Source: Candidatus Binatia bacterium | GTDB taxonomy: Bacteria; Desulfobacterota; Binatia; UBA9968 | Reading direction: 5' to 3' | Assembly (NCBI GenBank): GCA_036504975.1 | Contig: DASXUF010000052.1 | Location: 1-64,000 of the forward strand | Length of the DNA stretch: 64,000 nucleotides | Shown: positions 2,913-14,691 of the stretch, in pieces | Numbering within the stretch: the stretch's first letter is position 1 | Layout of the letters: the number at the start of each line of letters is the position of its first letter | The notes under the pieces: model-generated | The model's input: the letters and a program-made list of their open reading frames with translations, nothing else | What the model was told of the DNA's origin: nothing | Database searches by the model: none | Made by a program: the position numbers and the translations under genes

Positions 2913-4004
2913 TTACAGCCCGTAAAGCCGGCGCGGATTATCGCAGAGTATTTTTTCCGTCAGCGGCGGCGGTATGTCCTCGCGCGCTCTCATCGTTGCG
3001 ACGAGATGGCGCTCCTCGGAGGGATCGTTATGGCCGTAGTCGGAGCCGATGATCAGGTGATCCTCTCCCGTGCATCGCGCGAGATAGGGCACGTCCTCAT
3101 CCGCCTCGCAGGCGACGTAGAGCCTGCATTCGCGAAAGAGATCCGCGCTCGCGCCATATCTCCAGCGATCGCGCAGCAGCCTTTTGAGAATGTGCACGAG
3201 AAACGGCACCCAGCCCGCGGAGGCCTCGATAAAACCGAACCTGAGCCTGGGAAACATGTCGGGGATCTTATTGGCGACCAGATCGCGAAACGCCGCCAGA
3301 GGCAAAACCCTGCTGGCGAGGAAGCTGTGGTTGCGCTCGACGTCGATCAAGTCCAGCAGCGCCGTATTGCCGATCGCCGTGTGAATGCAGATGGGCATAG
3401 CGACATCCATGGCCGCCTGGTAAACCGGAAAGAAATAGGGATTGTCCAAGGTTTTGTCGCCTTCGAGCCCGCGGAAGAATACCCCGACGGCGCCGTGATC
3501 CTTCGCCCACTTGATCTCCTTCACCGATTCCTCGACGGCCCTTAAGGGCGGGACCACCACCCAGCGGAGACGGCCGCCGCTTTTGGAGCAGGCGTCCGCC
3601 AGCCAGCGGTTGTAGGCGCGGCACAAAGCGATCTCCAGCAGGGCGTCGTCGGTCAGGTAGACGAGGAACAACGTGGGGTAGATCACCTGCAACTCGACCC
3701 CGAGCTTGTCCATGTCTCTCAAGCGCGCTTGTGGATCCGTCAGCTCGCGGCATGCGATATGGATGTCGCCGCGGGACGACTCGTGCTTGGAGGCCGAGGG
3801 CGTGATCAGGCGGAAGCTCGCTCTTCCCACCGGCCGTGGAAAGATATTGCCGTCGATCAGCCAAAAGGCGTTCCGCGGGCCATAAAGAGTGTCGTCAGGC
3901 ACCGAGACGACAACCGGCCGTCGCGGATACATTTCACGGTCGATCAATTCCCACATTCGATTGGACTCGGCGATATGAGTGTCTGCGTCGACTACTCCGG
4001 CCAT
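2913..4004 (-). CDS. metal-dependent amidohydrolase, ACMSD/amidohydrolase-2 family
   Basis: This 363-residue protein has the amidohydrolase-2 layout: a first metal motif DADTH (D6-H10), H208 in ICIHTAIG, E260 in FGFIEASAGW, and the C-terminal GSDYGHND with D322 and H325. This superfamily includes ACMSD, gamma-resorcylate decarboxylase and 2-pyrone-4,6-dicarboxylate lactonase. A decarboxylase or hydrolase acting on an aromatic or ring-cleavage acid is therefore likely, but the substrate is not determinable. It is probably co-transcribed with the downstream binding-protein gene. Both stand in an insert bounded by dgkA sequences. Confidence 0.85.
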   Translation of the reverse strand: MAGVVDADTHIAESNRMWELIDREMYPRRPVVVSVPDDTLYGPRNAFWLIDGNIFPRPVGRASFRLITPSASKHESSRGDIHIACRELTDPQARLRDMDKLGVELQVIYPTLFLVYLTDDALLEIALCRAYNRWLADACSKSGGRLRWVVVPPLRAVEESVKEIKWAKDHGAVGVFFRGLEGDKTLDNPYFFPVYQAAMDVAMPICIHTAIGNTALLDLIDVERNHSFLASRVLPLAAFRDLVANKIPDMFPRLRFGFIEASAGWVPFLVHILKRLLRDRWRYGASADLFRECRLYVACEADEDVPYLARCTGEDHLIIGSDYGHNDPSEERHLVATMRAREDIPPPLTEKILCDNPRRLYGL

Positions 4005-5436: not shown

Positions 5437-5946
5437 ATGGCGAAAAAACAAAGACAAACCAACCGGCTCATCGGAGTCATCTCGGATACTCACGGTCTGA
5501 TGCGGCCGGAAGCGCTGCGCGCGCTCGCAGGCGCCGACCTGATCATCCACGCCGGCGATATCGGAAAGCCGGAAGTTGTCGCGGCTTTGCAATCCATGGC
5601 GAAGGTGATCGCCATTCGCGGGAATAACGATCGGGGCGCTTGGGCGCGGAAATTTCGCGAGACGGCCGTCGTGAAAACCGGCCGGATAAAAATCCTTGTC
5701 GTGCACGAGGTCAAAGGATTGGCCATCGATCCGAACGCCGCCGGTTTCCGCGTCGTGATCAGCGGCCATTCTCATTCTCCTTCAATCGTCGAGCGCGACG
5801 GTGTCCTTTATCTGAATCCCGGCAGCGCCGGCCCGCGGCGGTTCAACCTGCCGATCGCGGTCGCCAAATTGCGTCTCAAGGGATCTACGGTCGGTGCCCG
5901 CATCTTGAAGTTGAACCCGTCCGCCGTCGCTAAAAGAAATCCTTGA
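5437..5946 (+). CDS. metallophosphoesterase, YfcE/MJ0936 family
   Basis: This 169-residue protein has all calcineurin-like metal motifs of the YfcE family: ISDTHG near residue 15, HAGDIG near 38, IRGNNDRG near 58, LVVHE near 87, and SGHSHSP near 109, ending with LNPGSAGPRR. The ligands D, H, N and the GHSH pair are intact. Characterised relatives are Mn2+-dependent phosphodiesterases of unclear physiological substrate. The gene is transcribed toward the pyr operon, and its TGA lies inside the -35 box of the predicted pyr promoter. Confidence 0.9.
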   Translation: MAKKQRQTNRLIGVISDTHGLMRPEALRALAGADLIIHAGDIGKPEVVAALQSMAKVIAIRGNNDRGAWARKFRETAVVKTGRIKILVVHEVKGLAIDPNAAGFRVVISGHSHSPSIVERDGVLYLNPGSAGPRRFNLPIAVAKLRLKGSTVGARILKLNPSAVAKRNP

Positions 5947-5971: not shown

Positions 5972-5979
5972 AATTTAAG

Positions 5980-6087
5980 CCTTTTAAACCAATCCGGTGA
6001 GATTGGCAAAGGTCTCATGAAAACTCAAAATCTAATCCATCAGTACGCCCGAAGACCTGCGTGGTGACTCCCGGAGGTCTTTTTTTA
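5980..6087 (+). promoter_or_regulatory. PyrR-dependent transcription attenuator (leader RNA)
   Basis: Three mutually exclusive stems are visible. The anti-antiterminator is CCAATC (5989-5994) with GATTGG (6001-6006), extended by CCTTT (5980-5984) with AAAGG (6008-6012). Its apical part reads AATCCGGTGAGATT, matching the PyrR-binding consensus ARUCCNGNGAGGYU at all but one position. The antiterminator is GGTCT (6011-6015) with AGACC (6053-6057). The terminator is AGACCT (6053-6058) with AGGTCT (6075-6080), followed by a T run. By the known mechanism, UMP-bound PyrR stabilises the first stem and so allows termination before pyrR. Confidence 0.8.
6053..6087 (+). terminator. intrinsic terminator of the pyr attenuator
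   Basis: A six-base stem AGACCT/AGGTCT with a 16-base loop that may extend the stem (ccCGG region), followed by seven T residues from 6081. It ends five bases before the pyrR ATG, the position expected for leader attenuation. Confidence 0.75.
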
Positions 6088-6091
6088 TTTT

Positions 6092-6637
6092 ATGGAAACG
6101 GAGAAACGCGTCTTGCTCGAGAACGAAGAGGTTCAAAGGACCATCAGCCGGATGGCGCATGAAATCGTCGAGAAGAGCGGCGCGGAAAGCCTCGCGTTGA
6201 TAGGGATTCGCTCCGGCGGCGCGTATCTCGTCCGGCGCATAGGGCGAAAGATCGAAGCGCTGACCGGGAATTCGCCGGCCGTCGGGGTGGTCGACGTCAC
6301 GGCGTATCGCGACGATATTGAGAAGCATCCGGGCGAGCGATCGGCGCGCATGGATGTGCCGGTCGCCGTGGATCAGCGGACGGTGGTGCTGGTTGACGAC
6401 GTGATCAATACCGGGCGGACGATTCGGGCGGCGCTGGAAATGCTCGGCCACGCGGGCAAGCCGAAGAAGATCCTGGTCGCGACCTTGGTCGATCGGGGCG
6501 ACCGCGAGCTGCCGATCCGGGCCGACATCGTCGGCAAAAACGTGCAAGTCGAAGAATCGGAACGGGTGAATGTTTTGCTTCAAGAGTCGGACGGAGGCGA
6601 TGTCGTAACCGTGACGAAACATTCGCCAAGAAAATAA
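6092..6637 (+). CDS. pyrR: PyrR, pyr operon attenuation regulator/uracil phosphoribosyltransferase
   Basis: At 181 residues it has the normal PyrR length. The PRPP-binding loop VVLVDDVINTGRTIRAAL and the family-specific DRGDRELPIRADIVGKNV are intact. PyrR binds UMP and the leader RNA, and many members also make UMP from uracil and PRPP. A matching leader RNA lies directly upstream, so it very likely autoregulates this operon. The downstream pyrB gene encodes a second PyrR domain. In this copy the residue after VDDV is I-N-T, where B. subtilis PyrR has L-Y-T; the fused copy keeps the tyrosine. Confidence 0.93.
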   Translation: METEKRVLLENEEVQRTISRMAHEIVEKSGAESLALIGIRSGGAYLVRRIGRKIEALTGNSPAVGVVDVTAYRDDIEKHPGERSARMDVPVAVDQRTVVLVDDVINTGRTIRAALEMLGHAGKPKKILVATLVDRGDRELPIRADIVGKNVQVEESERVNVLLQESDGGDVVTVTKHSPRK

Positions 6638-6652
6638 AATCGCAAGCGATCC

Positions 6653-8635
6653 ATGAAGTTCGATATGCCGTCTTCAAAACCAGGCCTGATTTCGATCGAA
6701 GATTTGAGCGACCGCGAGATCGAAGAGATTTTCGCCCTGGCCGATACGATGCTGCCCGAGAACCGGAACCCTTCCGAGGCGCGCGCGCTCGGCGGCAAGA
6801 TCATGGCGACGCTCTTTTATGAGCCGAGCACGAGAACGCGGCTTTCTTTCGAATCGGCGATGCAGCGGCTCGGCGGCTCGGTGATCAGTTGCCCGGACAT
6901 GAAAAGCTCCTCGGCCGCCAAGGGCGAGACCATCGCCGACACCGCGAGGGTCGTTTCCAGTTATGCCGATGTCTTGGTCGTACGCCATTACTGGGACGGC
7001 GCGGCGCAAGCGATGGCGGAGTATGCGAGCGTTCCCGTGATCAACGCCGGCGACGGCAGCCACGAGCATCCGACGCAAACGCTCGGCGACCTCTATACGC
7101 TCAAGAAAGAAAAGGGCGATTTGAAGGGGCTGACGGTCGTGATCTGCGGCGATTTGAAGCACGGCCGGACCATTCATTCTCTGGTCTACGCGCTGGCGCG
7201 CTTCGGCGTGAACGTAGTGACGCTGGCCGCGGGCGGCATGGCGCTGCCGCAATACGTGATCGAAAAACTCGAACGGGAGCAGCACTACAACTTGACTCCG
7301 GTCGCTTCGGACGACCTGCAGGCGGCGATGGCGGAGACCGACGCCATCTATCTCACCCCTGACCAGCCGCACCAGCTCGCGCTTTTCACTCAGGTGGATC
7401 AGGACATCCAGGGCCGGATCAAGAGCATGGCCGCGGGACTCAAATTCGACGCATTCTATGTCACGCGCAAACAAAAAGAGCGCATGAAGCAGGGAAACGG
7501 CGGCGAAGCCGGGGGCTATCCAAGCCTCGGCGAAGGTTTTCTCAAGGAGCGGCGCTTCAAGGATACCGTGGTGATGCACCCGCTGCCGCGGGTCGATGAG
7601 CTGTCGCCGGAAATCGATAAGGATCGCAGGGGAATCTACTTCAAGCAGGCGGCTTATGGGGTGCCGATTCGGATGGCGCTGCTCAAGTTCCTGCTGGGGC
7701 CGTCAGCCCCGGCGCGGAGCCGCGCGCCGGAGAAAAAGCGGCTGCTGTACGAAAGCCCCGAAGCGATCGGCCCTCAATGCGCCAACGCCAATTGCGTGAC
7801 GCGAACCGAGAGCCTTTCGGCGCGCCCGAGCTTCGAGCTGTTGTTTTCCGGTCCCGGGGGCGCTCTGATTTTGCGCTGCTCTTACTGCAATCATCAGCTC
7901 AGGGTCGAGTACGTGGGTCACACGAGCTCGCGGCGCTATTGTCCCTACGATTTTTCGCTCGACGAGACGTTCTCCGGCTGGCTCAAGCGCGGCGAGCTGG
8001 CGATCTTCGACTCCATCAAGCAGGCCGAGGAGCTGGGCTACGAGCCGTACAAGAGCGGGCCGCAGCGCAACATTCTCGGCGAAGAGGAGATTCGCGGCGC
8101 GATTCAAAGAATGGCCGAGCAGATTTTCAACGAGAGCGAAGATTCCGAGCGCCTGGTCCTTCTCGGCGTCAAGACCAAGGGAGCGGTTCTCGCCCGGCGC
8201 ATCGCCGATGAGATAGAAAAATCCCGGCGGCGCAAAGTCGAGGTCGCCGAGATCGAGATTTTCGGCAGCGATGAAGGCATTCACAGAATTTGCGAGCCGG
8301 GCGCGGAGGCGGAGCCGCTCGCCCTCAAGGATCGTCCCGTCGTCATCGTGGACGACGTCATTTATACCGGGCGCACGGCCAAAAGCGCCCTCAGCATCAT
8401 CTTTAAAGCCGGCCGGCCCAGATCCGTGCGTCTGGCGGTGCTGGTGGACCGCGGCCACCGTGAAGTGCCGGTCAAGCCGAACTACGTGGGAAAGCACATT
8501 CCGAGTTCCGAAAAGGAGAGGGTGCGCGTCAAGCTGCGCGAGGTGGAGCAGGACGAGCGCGATAAAGTCGTGATCTATTCGATCATCGGACTGAATGAAA
8601 GCCGGCAGCAGCCGGCGGCCGGTGGTCAGCCATGA
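6653..8635 (+). CDS. pyrB: aspartate carbamoyltransferase fused to a PyrI-like zinc domain and a PyrR domain
   Basis: The frame encodes 660 residues, about twice a normal PyrB. Residues 1-350 are the catalytic chain: EPSTRTR (57-63), the 80s-loop SSSAAKGET with K90, HEHPTQ (137-142) and HPLPR (309-313). Residues 365-430 carry C376-x4-C381 and C409-x2-C412, the spacing of the PyrI zinc domain (CANANC, then [10 protein letters not shown]). Residues 471-645 are a complete PyrR domain with PRPP loop [11 protein letters not shown] (566-574) and [19 protein letters not shown]. There is no break in frame or composition at the junctions. It follows pyrR by 15 bases and overlaps carA by 4. The first step of pyrimidine synthesis may be physically coupled to PRPP/UMP sensing; this is inference. 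Confidence 0.9.
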
Positions 8636-9801
8636 AGGCGATCCTGGCGCTGGCAGACGAAACGTTTTACCTCGGCCGCTCCTTCGGCGCCGAAGGGGAA
8701 GCGATCGGCGAGGTCGTGTTCAACACCAGCATGACCGGTTACCAGGAGATCCTGACCGATCCTTCCTACGAAGGGCAATTGGTGGCGATGACTTATCCCG
8801 AGATCGGCAACGTCGGCGTCAACCCGGAAGACGTGGAGTCGCTGAAGCCGTACGTCAAAGGCTTCATCGTCAAGGAGTATTGCGCGTTACCCAGCAATTG
8901 GCGCGCGACCCAGCCGCTCGGCGAATACATGAAAGAGCACGGCATCGTCGGCATCGAGGGAATCGACACCCGGTCTCTGGTTCGCCGCCTGAGGGATCAT
9001 GGATCGCAGGAGGCGATCATTTCGACGCGGAGCGATAATCCCGCAGAGCTGATCGCGAAAGCGAAAGCGTCGCCGGGCCTGGTCGGGAGAGATCTGGTCA
9101 AAGAGGTTAGCTGTTGGGAAAGCTACGATTGGGACGAGGGAGGCTGGGAGCTGGGAACCGGGTACAGGAAAAGAATAGAGGCGGACGGCGCAAAGAAACC
9201 GCGCAAGACCAAAACGGCAAGCTTCGAGCAGCCGCGATTTTCGGTCGTCGCCTACGACTACGGCATCAAGCGGAATATCTTGCGCGGCCTCGCCGAGTCG
9301 GGCTGCACGGTGAAAGTCGTTCCGGCCGGAACTGCAGCCGAGGACGTTCTGGCGCTCAATCCGAATGGCATTTTTCTCTCGAATGGGCCGGGAGATCCCG
9401 ACGCGGTCCCATACGCGAAGGAAAACGTCCGGAAGCTCATCGGAAAAAAGCCGATCTTCGGCATCTGTCTCGGCCACCAGATCCTCGGCCTGGCGCTCGG
9501 CGGAAAGACTTACAAGTTAAAATTCGGCCATCACGGCGGCAATCAGCCGGTGATGGATTTGACCACGCGCAAAGTCGAGATCACGACGCAGAACCACGGC
9601 TTCGCCGTGGACGCCGACTCGCTCAAGGACGCCGCCGTCGTGACGCATCTCAACTTGAACGACCACACCGTCGAAGGCCTGGCGCACCGCGAGCTGCCGA
9701 TCTTCTCCGTCCAGTATCATCCGGAATCTTCTCCCGGCCCGCACGACGCGCGCTATCTGTTCAAGCGTTTCGTCGAGATGATGGAGAAGCAGGGGCAGTG
9801 A
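8632..9801 (+). CDS. carA: carbamoyl-phosphate synthase, small (glutaminase) subunit
   Basis: The 389 residues comprise the CPSase small-chain N-domain ([26 protein letters not shown]) and a class I glutamine amidotransferase domain. The nucleophile is C279 in [10 protein letters not shown], with H363 and E365 in [10 protein letters not shown]. It hydrolyses glutamine and passes ammonia to CarB. The ATG overlaps the pyrB stop as ATGA. A lysine-rich insertion near residues 178-200 ([17 protein letters not shown]) joins the two domains and is longer than in E. coli. Its stop overlaps a GTG that starts the first gene of an inserted cassette, so carA and carB are no longer adjacent. Confidence 0.96.
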
Positions 9802-10070
9802 AGCTCCAAGAAACGAAGTTAGTCTCCGAACAACTGGCTACTGAGGACCCTTCTGCTATCTGCGCGTGTCAGGAGCCAGGTATTTTCAATTGCGGGATGA
9901 AAGGAATTTTAGCAGGGGAGCCGCAAGACAACGGCTGTCGATATGTCGAACGTTGTGATGCGTGCGAGCGCTTCGATTCTGATGAGGCAGCTTGCGAAGA
10001 GTTTGCGCGTCTTATGGGTGGCCGATGTTGTTATGACCCTGACGAAATAATAGTTTGGTTCCCAGCATGA
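9798..10070 (+). CDS. cysteine-rich small hypothetical protein in the carA-carB insert
   Basis: GTG at 9798 overlaps the carA stop (GTGA). The 90-residue product contains nine cysteines. The C-terminal half, [20 protein letters not shown] and on to [17 protein letters not shown], resembles small proteins found in accessory loci that I cannot name. The cysteines suggest metal binding. It ends ATGA-overlapped with the PLD gene. An alternative start is ATG 9897. Function unknown; operon position suggests it belongs with the nuclease and toxin genes rather than with pyrimidine synthesis. Confidence 0.5.
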
Positions 10071-10969
10071 ACGAGACGGTCACACACGCAACTATACTGA
10101 GAAGTCTTTGGACAGAAAGTTTGCAGGGGCTTCTTTCGCAAGTCGAGGATAACCTCATGCTGGTGTCACCGTTCGTTAAGCTCTCAAAGGCAGGGGAAAT
10201 ATTAGCTGAACTAAGCCACCGAGGAGTTCAAAACAAGGTGCGGCTTGTAATGCTCACCGACCTACGTCCCGAATGCGCTCTAAGCGGATCGCTGGACTTA
10301 GAAGCGTTGATTGCGCTCGGACATGGAATTCCGAATTTTCTCTTAACACATCTACCAAGTCTTCATGCGAAAGTTTACATCGCGGACCAGAAGGCAGCTA
10401 TTGTGACGTCCGGTAATCTAACTGATTCAGGTGTGAGTGGAAATATTGAGTACGGAGTGGCTTTCAGCGATAAAAGCGTGGTCACTCAAATACGCGAGGA
10501 TTTTGAGCAGTACTCGTTACTAGGGGCGAAGGTGTCATCCACAGAGATCGAAGCGCTACTGGATGAAGTGAGAGAACTTAAAGAACTTTATCAGAAGGCC
10601 GAGCAAGGAATACGCGTTCGAGCCAGACTGGCCTTTAAACGGAAACTCCAAGCGACGCATTTACAGCTTCTCCGACACCGCGCAAAAGGGAAAACAACAC
10701 ACGCTATATTTTCCCAGACAATTCTATTTCTGCTCGCAAAAGGACCGCTACGAACAACTGAAATTCATCCTCTGATCCAAAGGCTGCATCCTGACATTTG
10801 TGACGACTCCATTGATCGTGTGATCGATGGCGTGAGCTTTGGCAAGAAGTGGAAGCGCCACGTAAGAACTGCACAGCAGTTCCTAAAAAGAGAGGGCAAG
10901 ATCGGATACGGCGGAGAACGGTGGCATCTCATGTCCAATGAACCGGAGGCCAAGAATGGCAAAGTCTGA
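10067..10969 (+). CDS. phospholipase D-like (HKD) nuclease-type protein
   Basis: The start at 10067 overlaps the previous stop. In 300 residues there is one HKD-type motif: SLHAKVYIAD (H100, K102, D107) followed by VTSGNLTDSGVSGNIEYG (S115, N117). Single-motif PLD proteins work as dimers and include the Nuc nuclease and the BfiI restriction enzyme. The C-terminal half (about 170-300) is helical and basic, ending with a region that looks like a winged-helix (LRTTEIHPLIQRLHPD). DNA binding and cleavage are plausible. A helicase partner, common for such nucleases in defence loci, is not present. Confidence 0.7.
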   Translation: MNETVTHATILRSLWTESLQGLLSQVEDNLMLVSPFVKLSKAGEILAELSHRGVQNKVRLVMLTDLRPECALSGSLDLEALIALGHGIPNFLLTHLPSLHAKVYIADQKAAIVTSGNLTDSGVSGNIEYGVAFSDKSVVTQIREDFEQYSLLGAKVSSTEIEALLDEVRELKELYQKAEQGIRVRARLAFKRKLQATHLQLLRHRAKGKTTHAIFSQTILFLLAKGPLRTTEIHPLIQRLHPDICDDSIDRVIDGVSFGKKWKRHVRTAQQFLKREGKIGYGGERWHLMSNEPEAKNGKV

Positions 10970-11198
10970 AAGGGCTATGAAAAAAGATCTTAAAGAAGCG
11001 AACGCAGAGGTGTTCTATAAAGCCTTCCGTTCTATGGACTCGGCTTCCAGGCGCCGGTTGGCGCTGCGTATCTTAAAAGACGAAGCCCTTCTCGAAGATC
11101 TGTATGATCATTTCCTGATTCAAGAAGCTGAAAAAGAAAAAGGACGCAGCATTCCATGGGAGGAATACCTCGATAAGAGGGACCGACGGACCAGCTGA
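10956..11198 (+). CDS. antitoxin partner of the RelE-like toxin
   Basis: The ATG at 10956 is preceded by GGAGG seven bases upstream, which decides it over the upstream ATG at 10938. The 80-residue product is strongly helical and charged (KDLKEANAEVFYKAFRSMDS, then LALRILKDEALLEDLYDH). It overlaps the end of the PLD gene by 14 bases, and its stop overlaps the toxin start as TGATG. Position and size identify it as the antitoxin; the sequence is not a family I can name with confidence. Confidence 0.65.
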   Translation: MAKSERAMKKDLKEANAEVFYKAFRSMDSASRRRLALRILKDEALLEDLYDHFLIQEAEKEKGRSIPWEEYLDKRDRRTS

Positions 11199-11455
11199 TG
11201 ACGTATCGGCTGTATCTTAGACCGGCAGCTGAGAAGGATTTACAGTGGCTCCCGAGAGAAGTTGCAAGTCGCGTGGAGAGAGCCATCAACCGATTATGTG
11301 ACGAACCTAGACCGAGAGGTTCCAAAAAGCTGTCAGGCTACGAAAATGAATGGCGAGTAAGAGTCGGGGACTATAGGATCTTGTACACCATTGATGATGC
11401 GAAAAAAGAGGTGCGGATCGCTCGCGTAGCTCATCGAAGAGAAGTTTACCGCTAG
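11198..11455 (+). CDS. RelE/ParE superfamily toxin
   Basis: The 85 residues show the full RelE pattern: [60 protein letters not shown] and the C-terminal VAHRREVYR. RelE toxins cut mRNA in the ribosomal A site; the R residues in RVGDYRILY and the tail H-R-R-E-x-Y typical of active toxins are present. The stop TAG lies two bases before the carB start codon, so ribosomes finishing the toxin could reinitiate on carB. Confidence 0.88.
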
Positions 11456-11457
11456 CC

Positions 11458-14400
11458 ATGCCCAAGCGCAGCGACATTCACTCGATCCTGCTGATCGGCT
11501 CGGGGCCGATCGTGATCGGCCAGGCGTGCGAGTTCGACTACTCCGGCACGCAGGCGTGCAAGGCGCTGAAGGAAGAGGGCTTCCGCGTAGTCCTCGTCAA
11601 CTCCAATCCGGCGACGATCATGACCGATCCGGAATTTGCGGACCGTACTTACATCGAGCCCATCACCGTCGATCTCGTCGAAAAGATCATTCAGAAAGAG
11701 CGGCCGGATGCACTGCTTCCGACCATCGGCGGACAGACCGCGCTCAACATCGCCATCGACCTGGCGGAGCAGGGGATCCTGGAGCGCTACGGCGTCGAGA
11801 TGATCGGCGCGAATCTCGAGGCGATCAAGAAAGCCGAAGACCGCGATCTATTCAAGGAAGCGATGGCGCGGGCCGGTCTCGATCTTCCGCAAAGCGGCTA
11901 CGCCCGCAGCATGGCCGACGCCAACCGAATCCAGAAGCGCCTCAGCTTTCCGGTCATCATCCGTCCCTCGCGCACGCTCGGCGGCAGCGGCGGCAACATC
12001 GCCTACGGCGCGGACGATTTCAAAGAAGTCGTCCAGCGGGGCCTGGACATCTCCCCGGTCCACGAGGTTCTCATCGAAGAGTCCGTGCTCGGCTGGAAAG
12101 AGTTCGAGCTGGAGGTGATGCGCGATCACAAAGACAACGTGGTGATCGTCTGCTCGATCGAGAATTTCGATCCGATGGGCGTGCACACCGGCGACTCGAT
12201 CACGGTCGCTCCCGCGCAAACCCTCACCGATAAAGAGTATCAGATCATGCGCGACGCCGCCCTCCGCGTGATCCGCGAGATCGGCGTAGACACCGGCGGA
12301 TCGAATATTCAGTTTGCCGTCAATCCCGCCGACGGGCGCATGGTCGTGATCGAGATGAACCCGCGGGTCTCGCGCAGCTCGGCGCTGGCGAGCAAGGCGA
12401 CCGGCTTTCCCATCGCCAAGATGGCCGCCAAGCTCGCCGTTGGCTACACGCTGGACGAGATTCCGAACGACATCACGCGCGAGACGCCGGCGTGCTTCGA
12501 GCCGACGATCGACTACGTGGTCGTAAAGATCCCGCGCTTTACTTTCGAGAAATTCCCCCAGGCGCAGGATATCCTCACGCCGCAGATGAAGTCGGTCGGC
12601 GAAGCGATGGCGATCGGCCGCACGTTCAAAGAGTCGCTGCAGAAGGCGATGCGCTCGCTGGAGATCGGCTCTTACGGCTTCGAAGAGAAGCTGGCGCCCG
12701 GAGAAGGCGACCGGGATGAAAAATTGCGCTCGCTCGAAAACAAGCTTCGGGTGCCGAACGCCGACCGCTTGTGGCACTTGGCCGACGCGCTCAGAGTCGG
12801 AATGACGATCGAGAAGATTTACGGCCTCAGCAAAATCGATCCGTGGTTTTTGGACCAACTCCGCCAGATCGTCGCCGCCGAGGAAGAGATCAAAGCCGCG
12901 CGCGGCGAGGGCGGCGCCCTCACGGCCGAATTTTTCCACAGGGTGAAGCAGATGGGCTTTTCCGACCGCAGGCTGGGAAAGCTCCTGGGACGACCGGAGG
13001 AAGATATCCGCGCGCAGAGAACCGAGGCGGACGTGCGCGCCGTATTTCGCGCCGTCGATACCTGCGGCGCTGAGTTCGCAGCCTATACGCCGTACCTTTA
13101 CTCCACCTATGAAGGAGAAGACGAGTCGAACCGGACGCCGAAAAAGAAGATCATGATTCTCGGCGGCGGGCCCAATCGAATCGGCCAAGGCATCGAGTTC
13201 GACTACTGCTGCGTTCACGCGGCGTTCGCCCTCAAGGAAGACGGCTACGAGACCATCATGGTCAACTGCAATCCCGAGACGGTCAGCACCGATTACGACA
13301 CCTCCGACAAGCTCTACTTTGAGCCGCTGACGCTGGAAGACGTGCTCAACATCGTGGAGCGGGAAAATCCCGACGGCGTCATCGTCCAGTTCGGCGGCCA
13401 GACGCCGCTGAAGCTCGCTTTGGCGCTGGAGCGGGCGGGCGTCAAGATCATCGGCACCTCCCCGGACAGCATCGACCTGGCCGAGGACCGCGAGCGCTTC
13501 AAGCAACTCCTCGATCGTCTCGGCTTGAAGCAGCCGATGAGCGGGACGGCGCGCTCGTACGAGGACGCGCTGCAGATCGCCGAGCTGCTCGATTATCCCG
13601 TGCTGGTTCGTCCTTCCTACGTCCTCGGCGGGCGGGCGATGGAGATCGTCTACGACCGGGACACTCTCAAACGTTACATGACGCACGCGGTCGCGGCGTC
13701 TCCCGAGCATCCCGTTCTGATCGACAAATTTTTGGACGACGCGATCGAGCTGGACGTGGATGCGCTGGCCGACGGCGAGCGCGTCGTGATCGGCGGCATC
13801 ATGGAGCACATCGAGCGCGCCGGCGTCCACTCCGGCGACAGCGCCTGCAGCCTGCCGCCGAAGTCGATTTCGCCCGCGATCCAGCAGGAGATCCGCCGGC
13901 AAGCTTCGGCTCTGGCGGTGGCGCTCAACGTCCGCGGCTTGATGAACGTGCAATTCGCCGTCAAGGGCCAGGACATCTACGTTCTCGAAGTCAACCCCCG
14001 CGCCTCGCGCACGGTGCCGTTCGTGAGCAAGGCGACCGGCGTCCCGCTGGCAAAAATCGCCGCGCGCATCATGGTCGGTAAAAGACTCGACGCGCTGGCC
14101 GCCGAAGTCCTGCCGCGACATATCTCGGTGAAAGAATCGGTTTTCCCGTTCAATAAATTTCCCGGCGTCGATACCCTGCTCGGGCCGGAGATGAAGTCCA
14201 CAGGAGAGGTCATGGGAATCGATGCGTCTTTCGGGCTCGCGTACGCAAAAGCGCAGCTCGGCAGCGGCACCCGGCTGCCGCGCGGCGGCAAAGTCTTCAT
14301 CAGCGTGCGCGACGAAGACAAGGAGCCGGTCGCCCGGATCGCCGGAAAGCTCCAGCGACTCGGCTTTCGGATTGTCGCTACTCGAGGTACCGCCGCTTAT

Positions 14401-14691
14401 TTTCTGCTGCATGGAATCTCCGCCGAGACCGTCAAAAAAGTTCAGGAAGGGAGCCCGAACATCGCGGAGGCGATCAAAAACGGGGAGATCGCAATGGTGA
14501 TCAATACCCCGATGGACGCGCACTCCCACGCGGATTCGTTCCACCTCAGGCGCAACGCCGTCGATTACCAGGTGCCCTATTTCACCACCATCGCCGGCGC
14601 GGACGCGGCGGCGGAAGGAATCGAATTGCTCAAAGATCGCGAGTTCGACGTCCGCCCGCTGCAGGAATATCTGGCGCCGACTCAAGTATGA
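11458..14691 (+). CDS. carB: carbamoyl-phosphate synthase, large subunit
   Basis: At 1077 residues it is full length. Two homologous halves each hold an ATP-grasp domain. The first starts [20 protein letters not shown] and has [16 protein letters not shown]; the second starts [20 protein letters not shown] and has [16 protein letters not shown]. They are joined by the oligomerisation region (about 400-550). The C-terminus is an MGS-like allosteric domain ([17 protein letters not shown]), where UMP or IMP act in E. coli. It makes carbamoyl phosphate for PyrB. It begins 2 bases after the toxin gene and overlaps recG by 4 bases. An extended, nonstandard linker ([17 protein letters not shown]) is seen near residue 480. 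Confidence 0.97.

Follow-up and report, generated by a model that had tools for sequence, protein, structure and literature searches.

A fused aspartate transcarbamoylase of Binatia with a PyrR domain in the position expected of the PyrI effector domain: a putative built-in nucleotide sensor

Within a window of 64,000 nucleotides (the whole stretch of DNA that was analysed) from a Candidatus Binatia genome, a single gene (6653..8635, forward strand) encodes a protein of 660 amino acids in which an aspartate transcarbamoylase (ATCase) catalytic chain, PyrB, is followed by a zinc domain of the PyrI type, then by a linker and a PyrR domain. ATCase, a textbook example of an allosteric enzyme, catalyses the committed step of pyrimidine synthesis; in bacteria, PyrI is the classical arm through which it is controlled. 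On the reading that we favor, and regard as rather probable, UMP or PRPP would bind to the PyrR domain, which would thereby set the activity of an enzyme assembled from six chains, with control divided between this domain and a second, separate PyrR. Comparison of sequences suggests that the fused PyrR probably stands in for the effector domain of PyrI as an allosteric UMP/PRPP sensor, and that it is likely the separate PyrR that acts on the RNA leader.

The reading frame is open throughout, contains all domains and has the separate pyrR directly upstream. PyrB occupies residues 1–350 (6653..7702), the PyrI_C-type zinc domain (PF02748) residues 371–420 (7763..7912), a linker module conserved in alignments (AEELGYEPY...GPQR) residues 421–470 (7913..8062) and the PyrR domain, defined by PF00156, NF003549 and residue comparisons, residues 471–645 (8063..8587), all on the forward strand. 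Pfam placed OTCace_N at residues 12–151 (174 bits), OTCace (77 bits), PyrI_C at 375–417 (25.3 bits against a cut-off of 23.4) and Pribosyltran at 476–617 (78 bits). The same protein passed the NCBIfam equivalog models for both PyrB (TIGR00670, 304 bits, cut-off 237) and PyrR (NF003549, 163 bits, cut-off 138), and scored under the cut-offs of four other PyrR models, NF003545 to NF003548. The residue numbers and domain limits that an earlier note had drawn from the window (PyrB 1–350, PyrR 471–645) proved right, and the cysteines it had named, C376, C381, C409 and C412 of the zinc domain, are conserved in 120 of the 120 best-listed homologues (the window's own included).

A fusion of this kind could be an error of assembly or sequencing, a reading to which we give practically no weight. 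A protein search matched 6,313 proteins, presumably including plain PyrBs; domains were counted in the best 120 of these (67–100% identity, the window's own included), and OTCace and Pribosyltran domains occur together in one protein in all 120. When the linker region was used to scan one genome per species, 47 loci were obtained. The linker is in frame with PyrR sequence at 47 of 47, and PyrB lies in that frame at 46; the remaining locus, L053, is cut before PyrB by a contig end. A frame of more than 600 amino acids with PyrB, linker and PyrR is present at 42 of the 47 (one of which, L042, begins at a contig end); of the other five, L037 and L053 are cut at their start by a contig end, L043 is cut at its end, and L057 and L078 are frame-broken inside the PyrR part (8350–8498 and 8407–8501, respectively). 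Those two breaks could be taken to favor an error, as could genome G400, whose frame length equals that of L057 and which probably carries the same gene, the single stop codon inside the matched stretch in three of 52 fusion genomes (G382, G376 and G356), and genome G121, where the gene is split over two contig ends. Against this stand the 42 loci with one long frame and the 52 of 118 genomes of the window's class that carry the fusion. Since the fusion recurs across homologues and class genomes, an artefact is excluded. Homologues with pyrB and the second pyrR as separate genes, named beforehand as the outcome that would contradict the fusion, were not seen (46 of 47 loci are fused), and the original observation is confirmed.

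The 52 genomes, drawn from a class that we take as Binatia, all belong to three families. In the window's family the fusion is present in 17 of 19 genomes, the two misses, G298 and G346, being 93% and 87% complete; in the second family it is present in 29 of 29 (one split over two contig ends, one frame-broken) and in the third in 6 of 6. No full-length match occurred in any of the 64 remaining class genomes, including eight of another family in the window's order, and across a sample of the phylum the fusion was found in 7 of 297 genomes. Two operon types are apparent: pyrR–fusion–carA–carB in clade A, to which the window belongs, and pyrR–fusion–pyrC–carA–carB in clade B. A separate pyrR lies directly upstream at all 44 loci with upstream sequence (L037, L042 and L053 begin at a contig end).

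Public records give a scattered picture of these genes. NCBI labels 28 of the 47 loci Myxococcota (via "Deltaproteobacteria bacterium"), 10 Pseudomonadota and 8 Binatota, with one unlabelled; single database names of homologues point to Methylomirabilota or Verrucomicrobiae. We read the divergent labels as old or loose. Homologues that carry a name are called either aspartate carbamoyltransferase or pyrimidine operon attenuation protein, and one name gives both activities. Because the names cover a single domain, the fusion is mostly hidden in public annotation. A literature search covering titles and the openings of abstracts of open-licence papers returned no description of a PyrB–PyrR fusion, and the words "pyrimidine" and "carbamoyl" do not occur in the main text of a Binatota paper (PMC8262859).

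Judged by its sequence, the fused protein is an aspartate transcarbamoylase whose carbamoyl-phosphate and aspartate site residues are intact. The equivalents of 13 of 14 E. coli site positions (S52, T53, R54, T55, K84, R105, H134, Q137, R167, R229, Q231, P266 and L267) are kept in 112 of 112 fused rows, and that of S80 in 111. At the position of E. coli Glu239, which we take to be an important T-state residue, only 15 of 112 rows have Glu. Compared with E. coli PyrB and PDB chains, the aspartate domain has an insert at about residues 236–262 (7358..7438, forward strand; limits set by eye), which precedes the Arg229 equivalent and contains a conserved PHQLALF motif (SHQLSLF in G003, a relative without PyrR). 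This region has low pLDDT in both AlphaFold models, which were built from 57 and 113 sequences and have mean pLDDT values of 73.0 and 72.7, with most of residues 600–660 below 50. The models are thus weak at the PyrR end and in the insert, where it matters, and docking of the zinc domain and pairing of PyrR stay predictions. In a comparison of both models with the PDB, the best 50 listed matches of each were ATCase chains; PyrR and PyrI entries do not figure among those 50, which says nothing against these folds.

The part of PyrI that is present is the zinc domain. The slice comprising zinc domain and linker did not reach the whole-chain PyrI model TIGR00240 (18.2 bits, cut-off 148.6), and Pfam gave no match to the PyrI nucleotide-binding domain, PF01948, in the fused protein at E values up to 0.1. 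Nor was PF01948 matched in any of 20 genomes of the window's order, its own included; a control search matched in 7 of 14. The earlier note's claim that the N-terminal nucleotide-binding domain of PyrI is absent thus holds. Because PF01948 is absent from the three-part fusion, the PyrR domain takes up the position in which the PyrI effector domain is expected, and the further proposal that it may replace that domain fits this anatomy: zinc domain kept, PF01948 absent, PyrR in its place. The linker itself is of no recognized family: residues 411–487 matched no Pfam family at E values up to 5, and a likeness of residues 421–470 to an Ada-type metal-binding module, noted by eye, was dropped on that result. 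Cys430, within the linker, is present in 120 of the 120 best-listed close homologues and is Tyr in both aligned clade B members; it is therefore not a fifth metal ligand of the whole family.

Relatives lacking the fusion, or its last domain, provide some information on the parts. Nine class genomes without the fusion were considered. In seven, a PyrB with the HPGPxNRG motif, which we take to mark the B. subtilis type, is encoded with pyrR just upstream, and the fused PyrB therefore differs in type from these seven. The other two, of family f97, have a short PyrB of the HPLPR type, and no pyrR was found within their 9.0 and 5.3 kb of locus sequence. In the phylum sample, the G003 protein has PyrB, zinc domain and linker and ends at a stop codon without reaching a PyrR, and that of G035 has PyrB and zinc domain only, showing that the zinc foot can exist without a PyrR domain. 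Genes for PyrB with the zinc domain and no PyrR lie at L012 1504–2910 and L014 1468–2736 (468 and 422 amino acids), in phylum members other than the source of the window. A search with the G003 linker found the PyrR-less form in 3 of 17 candidates, G003 itself included; either few such forms exist there, or their divergence is too great for the word filter to pass them.

To compare the two kinds of PyrR we used 113 fused rows (109 distinct, the window's appearing twice), 45 separate PyrRs of fusion genomes and 36 PyrRs of other phylum genomes; the rows are related and the counts stand for few events. In a tree, one branch (100/100) sets the fused domains apart and a second (95/94) does so for the separate PyrRs from these genomes, so that the residue counts represent few events, long kept. 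The PRPP-loop pair Asp105–Asp106 is present in every fused row and in all 45 separate and all 36 other PyrRs. Fused rows also keep Gly111 (113/113), Thr113 (113/113) and Arg138 (112/113). His140, presumably a nucleotide contact, occurs in 110/113 fused, 0/45 separate and 26/36 other PyrRs. The YRDD loop (Tyr/Phe-Arg-Asp-Asp), which we take to be part of the catalytic flexible loop of PyrR, shows the reverse: 0/113 fused, 45/45 separate and 36/36 other. In the window's fused domain D567 and D568 of the PRPP loop and H602 are kept, E489 and E494 replace His22 and Arg27, and the YRDD loop is absent. An additional lineage, the third, came from a separate later search that gave 66 proteins, the PyrR part being cut out in 40 (the protein of L118 is counted both here and among the 113). 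It repeats the pattern of the fused rows, with an acid at position 27 in 39/40, YRDD in 0/40, Asp–Asp in 40/40 and His140 in 39/40.

The earlier note described the PRPP loop as intact. This stands for the window's fused domain and fails for the family, Arg112 being replaced in 51 of 113 fused rows (by Trp in 31); the third lineage has Trp at this position in 40 of 40. Ligand binding may therefore differ, or be lost, in some lineages. The intact loop in the window, together with the name of the NCBIfam model that was passed (bifunctional regulator and uracil phosphoribosyltransferase), might suggest that the fused domain is still active as a uracil phosphoribosyltransferase, which would make the protein a bifunctional enzyme of salvage and de novo synthesis. 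With the presumed catalytic loop YRDD missing from 113/113 fused rows and 40/40 of the third lineage, we consider this very unlikely. The residue pattern rather fits, as far as sequence comparison goes, a domain that binds a ligand and has lost its catalytic role.

Loss of YRDD, and replacement of Arg112 in those 51 rows, would suit a domain that had given up ligands altogether and served as a pairing module, a structural part joining trimers from which control by ligand has been lost. The two phylum genomes with PyrB and zinc domain and no PyrR, and the three such proteins (query included) found by the search, can be put on the same side. Weighing against it is the near invariance of Asp105, Asp106, Gly111, Thr113, Arg138 and His140. 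In an alignment of the best 120 homologues the first half of the fused domain drifts, and the contrast with these residues suggests a pocket in use; we therefore hold the purely structural reading to be unlikely.

The residues that bear on RNA show a different pattern. We take Thr18, His22, Arg27, Arg141, Arg146 and Lys152 of B. subtilis PyrR to be involved in RNA binding, position 27 being Arg in that protein. His22 is absent from all 113 fused rows and present in 30/45 separate and 26/36 other PyrRs. Position 27 is acidic in 108/113 fused, 0/45 separate and 1/36 other, and basic in 41/45 separate and 32/36 other. Arg19 is found in 19/113 fused rows (the window's included), 45/45 separate and 36/36 other PyrRs. 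Arg141 occurs in 111/113, 35/45 and 35/36, a basic residue (Arg or Lys) at position 146 in 113/113, 45/45 and 21/36, and a basic residue (Lys or Arg) at position 152 in 113/113, 43/45 and 28/36, respectively. By the counts for YRDD, position 27, His22, Arg19 and His140, the two PyrR copies of one operon show largely opposite losses. The basic patch at 141, 146 and 152, presumed to contact RNA, stays in the fused domain by the same counts. Loss of the RNA face is accordingly partial, as judged from these residues, with the window's copy also keeping Arg19. As the part of the presumed RNA face on helix 1 is lost or reversed, RNA binding by the fused domain itself is the less likely possibility, and with it the earlier note's alternative that the enzyme joins the attenuation complex in this way (His22 0/113, acid at position 27 in 108/113).

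Opposite losses raise another possibility: that the fused domain and the separate PyrR form a pair, a mixed attenuator protein in which the half that senses nucleotides is part of the enzyme. The two genes are side by side at 44 of 44 loci with upstream sequence, and their losses are roughly complementary, with His140 in 110/113 fused and 0/45 separate copies and the helix-1 RNA residues and YRDD reversed. However, the separate PyrR keeps both the PRPP-loop Asp–Asp and YRDD in 45 of 45, and His140 is also missing from 10 of 36 PyrRs of other phylum genomes. Furthermore, each group forms one side of a branch, and each residue loss may therefore be a single event. We judge the mixed attenuator to be quite improbable. 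Its wider form, in which PyrR in Binatia would have split into an RNA-face copy and a nucleotide-pocket copy on the ATCase that pair, so that the enzyme senses for the attenuator of its own operon, is to us equally doubtful.

The surroundings of the gene are those of a pyrimidine operon. The separate pyrR (6092..6637, forward strand) encodes 181 amino acids with Arg19, His22, Lys at position 27 and the YRDD loop, lacks His140, and scores 187 bits against the NF003549 cut-off of 138. The same genome has a third PyrR-like gene (G000:C17:38174-38683; L004 1477–2019), located after an open reading frame (ORF) that by eye is amidohydrolase-like; its product has the YRDD loop, lacks His22 and has Glu at position 152. 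The fusion is followed by carA (8632..9801, forward strand; PF00988 and PF00117), which overlaps its end by 4 bases, and by an ORF for 1,077 amino acids (11458..14691, forward strand) that, used as a query, matched related loci and that we name carB on presumed homology. Between carA and carB (10055–11455) the operon is interrupted by a PLD-like gene, a small ORF and a ParE-type toxin gene. At L040 (8901–13136) carA and carB form a single frame of 1,412 residues.

Upstream of the separate pyrR lies a predicted PyrR-binding leader RNA, consisting of hairpin and terminator (5977..6088, forward strand), that matched RF00515 with 44 bits (E 0.0009), under the gathering score of 54. That score was passed at 4 of 12 clade A loci given (of 13 in the clade) and at none of 11 clade B loci given (of 34 in the clade); by eye, hairpin and terminator are kept at most loci of both clades. 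An Rfam P10 match at 5700–5756 falls inside an ORF (5437–5946) and was taken as chance.

Inside the leader is a short ORF of 16 codons and a stop (6017..6067, forward strand), which begins past the 3' arm of the PyrR hairpin and ends in the terminator loop. In 9 of 13 clade A leaders, the window's included, the stop of such an ORF lies 10–25 bases before the T run; in L034 it lies, by eye, in the terminator loop, and L036, L039 and L040 are exceptions. At L036 (about 3555–3560) the leader ORF is a start codon followed immediately by a stop, hairpin and terminator still being there. In 27 of 32 clade B leaders the stop falls between 14 bases before and 7 after the start of pyrR, overlapping it as ATGA in 14 of the 27; two of the remainder are without the leader motif and three without such a stop. 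In these counts, which stand without a shuffle control, the pyrR start is estimated from the alignment. The layout suggests that PyrR may exert control via translation of the leader: by hiding the start of the leader ORF, bound PyrR would allow the terminator to form, a scheme that the layout fits. We presume a similar scheme in the leader of the Thermus pyr operon, where, as we understand it, the PyrR hairpin overlaps the start of a leader peptide ahead of the terminator. The likeness lies in this overlap, while the lineage differs and here the fusion gene follows.

Returning to the sensor reading, support comes from the conservation of the fusion, the intact ATCase residues, the lack of a PF01948 match in 20 of 20 genomes, the residue pattern of the fused PyrR against that of the two comparison groups and its repetition in the third lineage, the separation of fused and separate copies in the tree, and the PyrR leader before the separate pyrR. 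Counted against it are the altered Arg112 in part of the family, the basic patch that stays at 141–152, the weak models and the rarely kept Glu239. In one known type of ATCase, two trimers are combined with three regulatory dimers, the regulatory chain being separate or fused (PMC4581275), and nucleotides are bound by the regulatory subunits (PMC7878868). In the fused protein the zinc domain would attach to the catalytic domain in the manner of PyrI, PyrR domains would pair between trimers, and six identical chains would so rebuild the layout of two trimers and three dimers seen in E. coli. UMP as inhibitor and PRPP as antagonist would compete in the PyrR pocket, and a nucleotide bound there would shift the assembly between states of low and high activity. 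The leader RNA at the head of the operon would be the target of the separate PyrR, in which more of the RNA-facing residues are kept; control of expression and control of activity would therefore be split over two PyrR copies.

Comparison with known systems places the protein among several. With the dodecameric ATCase of E. coli it shares the HPLPR motif in PyrB, the cysteine spacing of a PyrI-type zinc domain and an extra domain attached where a nucleotide-binding one is expected; it differs in that the PyrI effector domain is absent and a PyrR domain present, and in that the order is PyrB–zinc–PyrR, whereas in PyrI the effector domain comes before the zinc domain. With PyrR of the B. subtilis type the fused domain has in common the PRT fold, the Asp–Asp of the PRPP loop, His140, Arg141 and a passed NCBIfam PyrR model; unlike that protein it is joined to an enzyme, has an acid at position 27, lacks His22 and YRDD and adjoins a more canonical PyrR. 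As in CAD and the ATCase–DHOase complexes, a pyrimidine enzyme is physically joined to a partner, but the partner here is a domain of the regulator type and not an enzyme of the pathway.

An ATCase in which a whole lineage has the PyrI zinc foot together with PyrR is likely to be a natural swap of one sensor for another. With it one could ask by experiment if a sensor unrelated to PyrI can be coupled to ATCase through the zinc foot, and operons with two PyrR copies of largely opposite losses offer material for separating RNA binding from nucleotide sensing.
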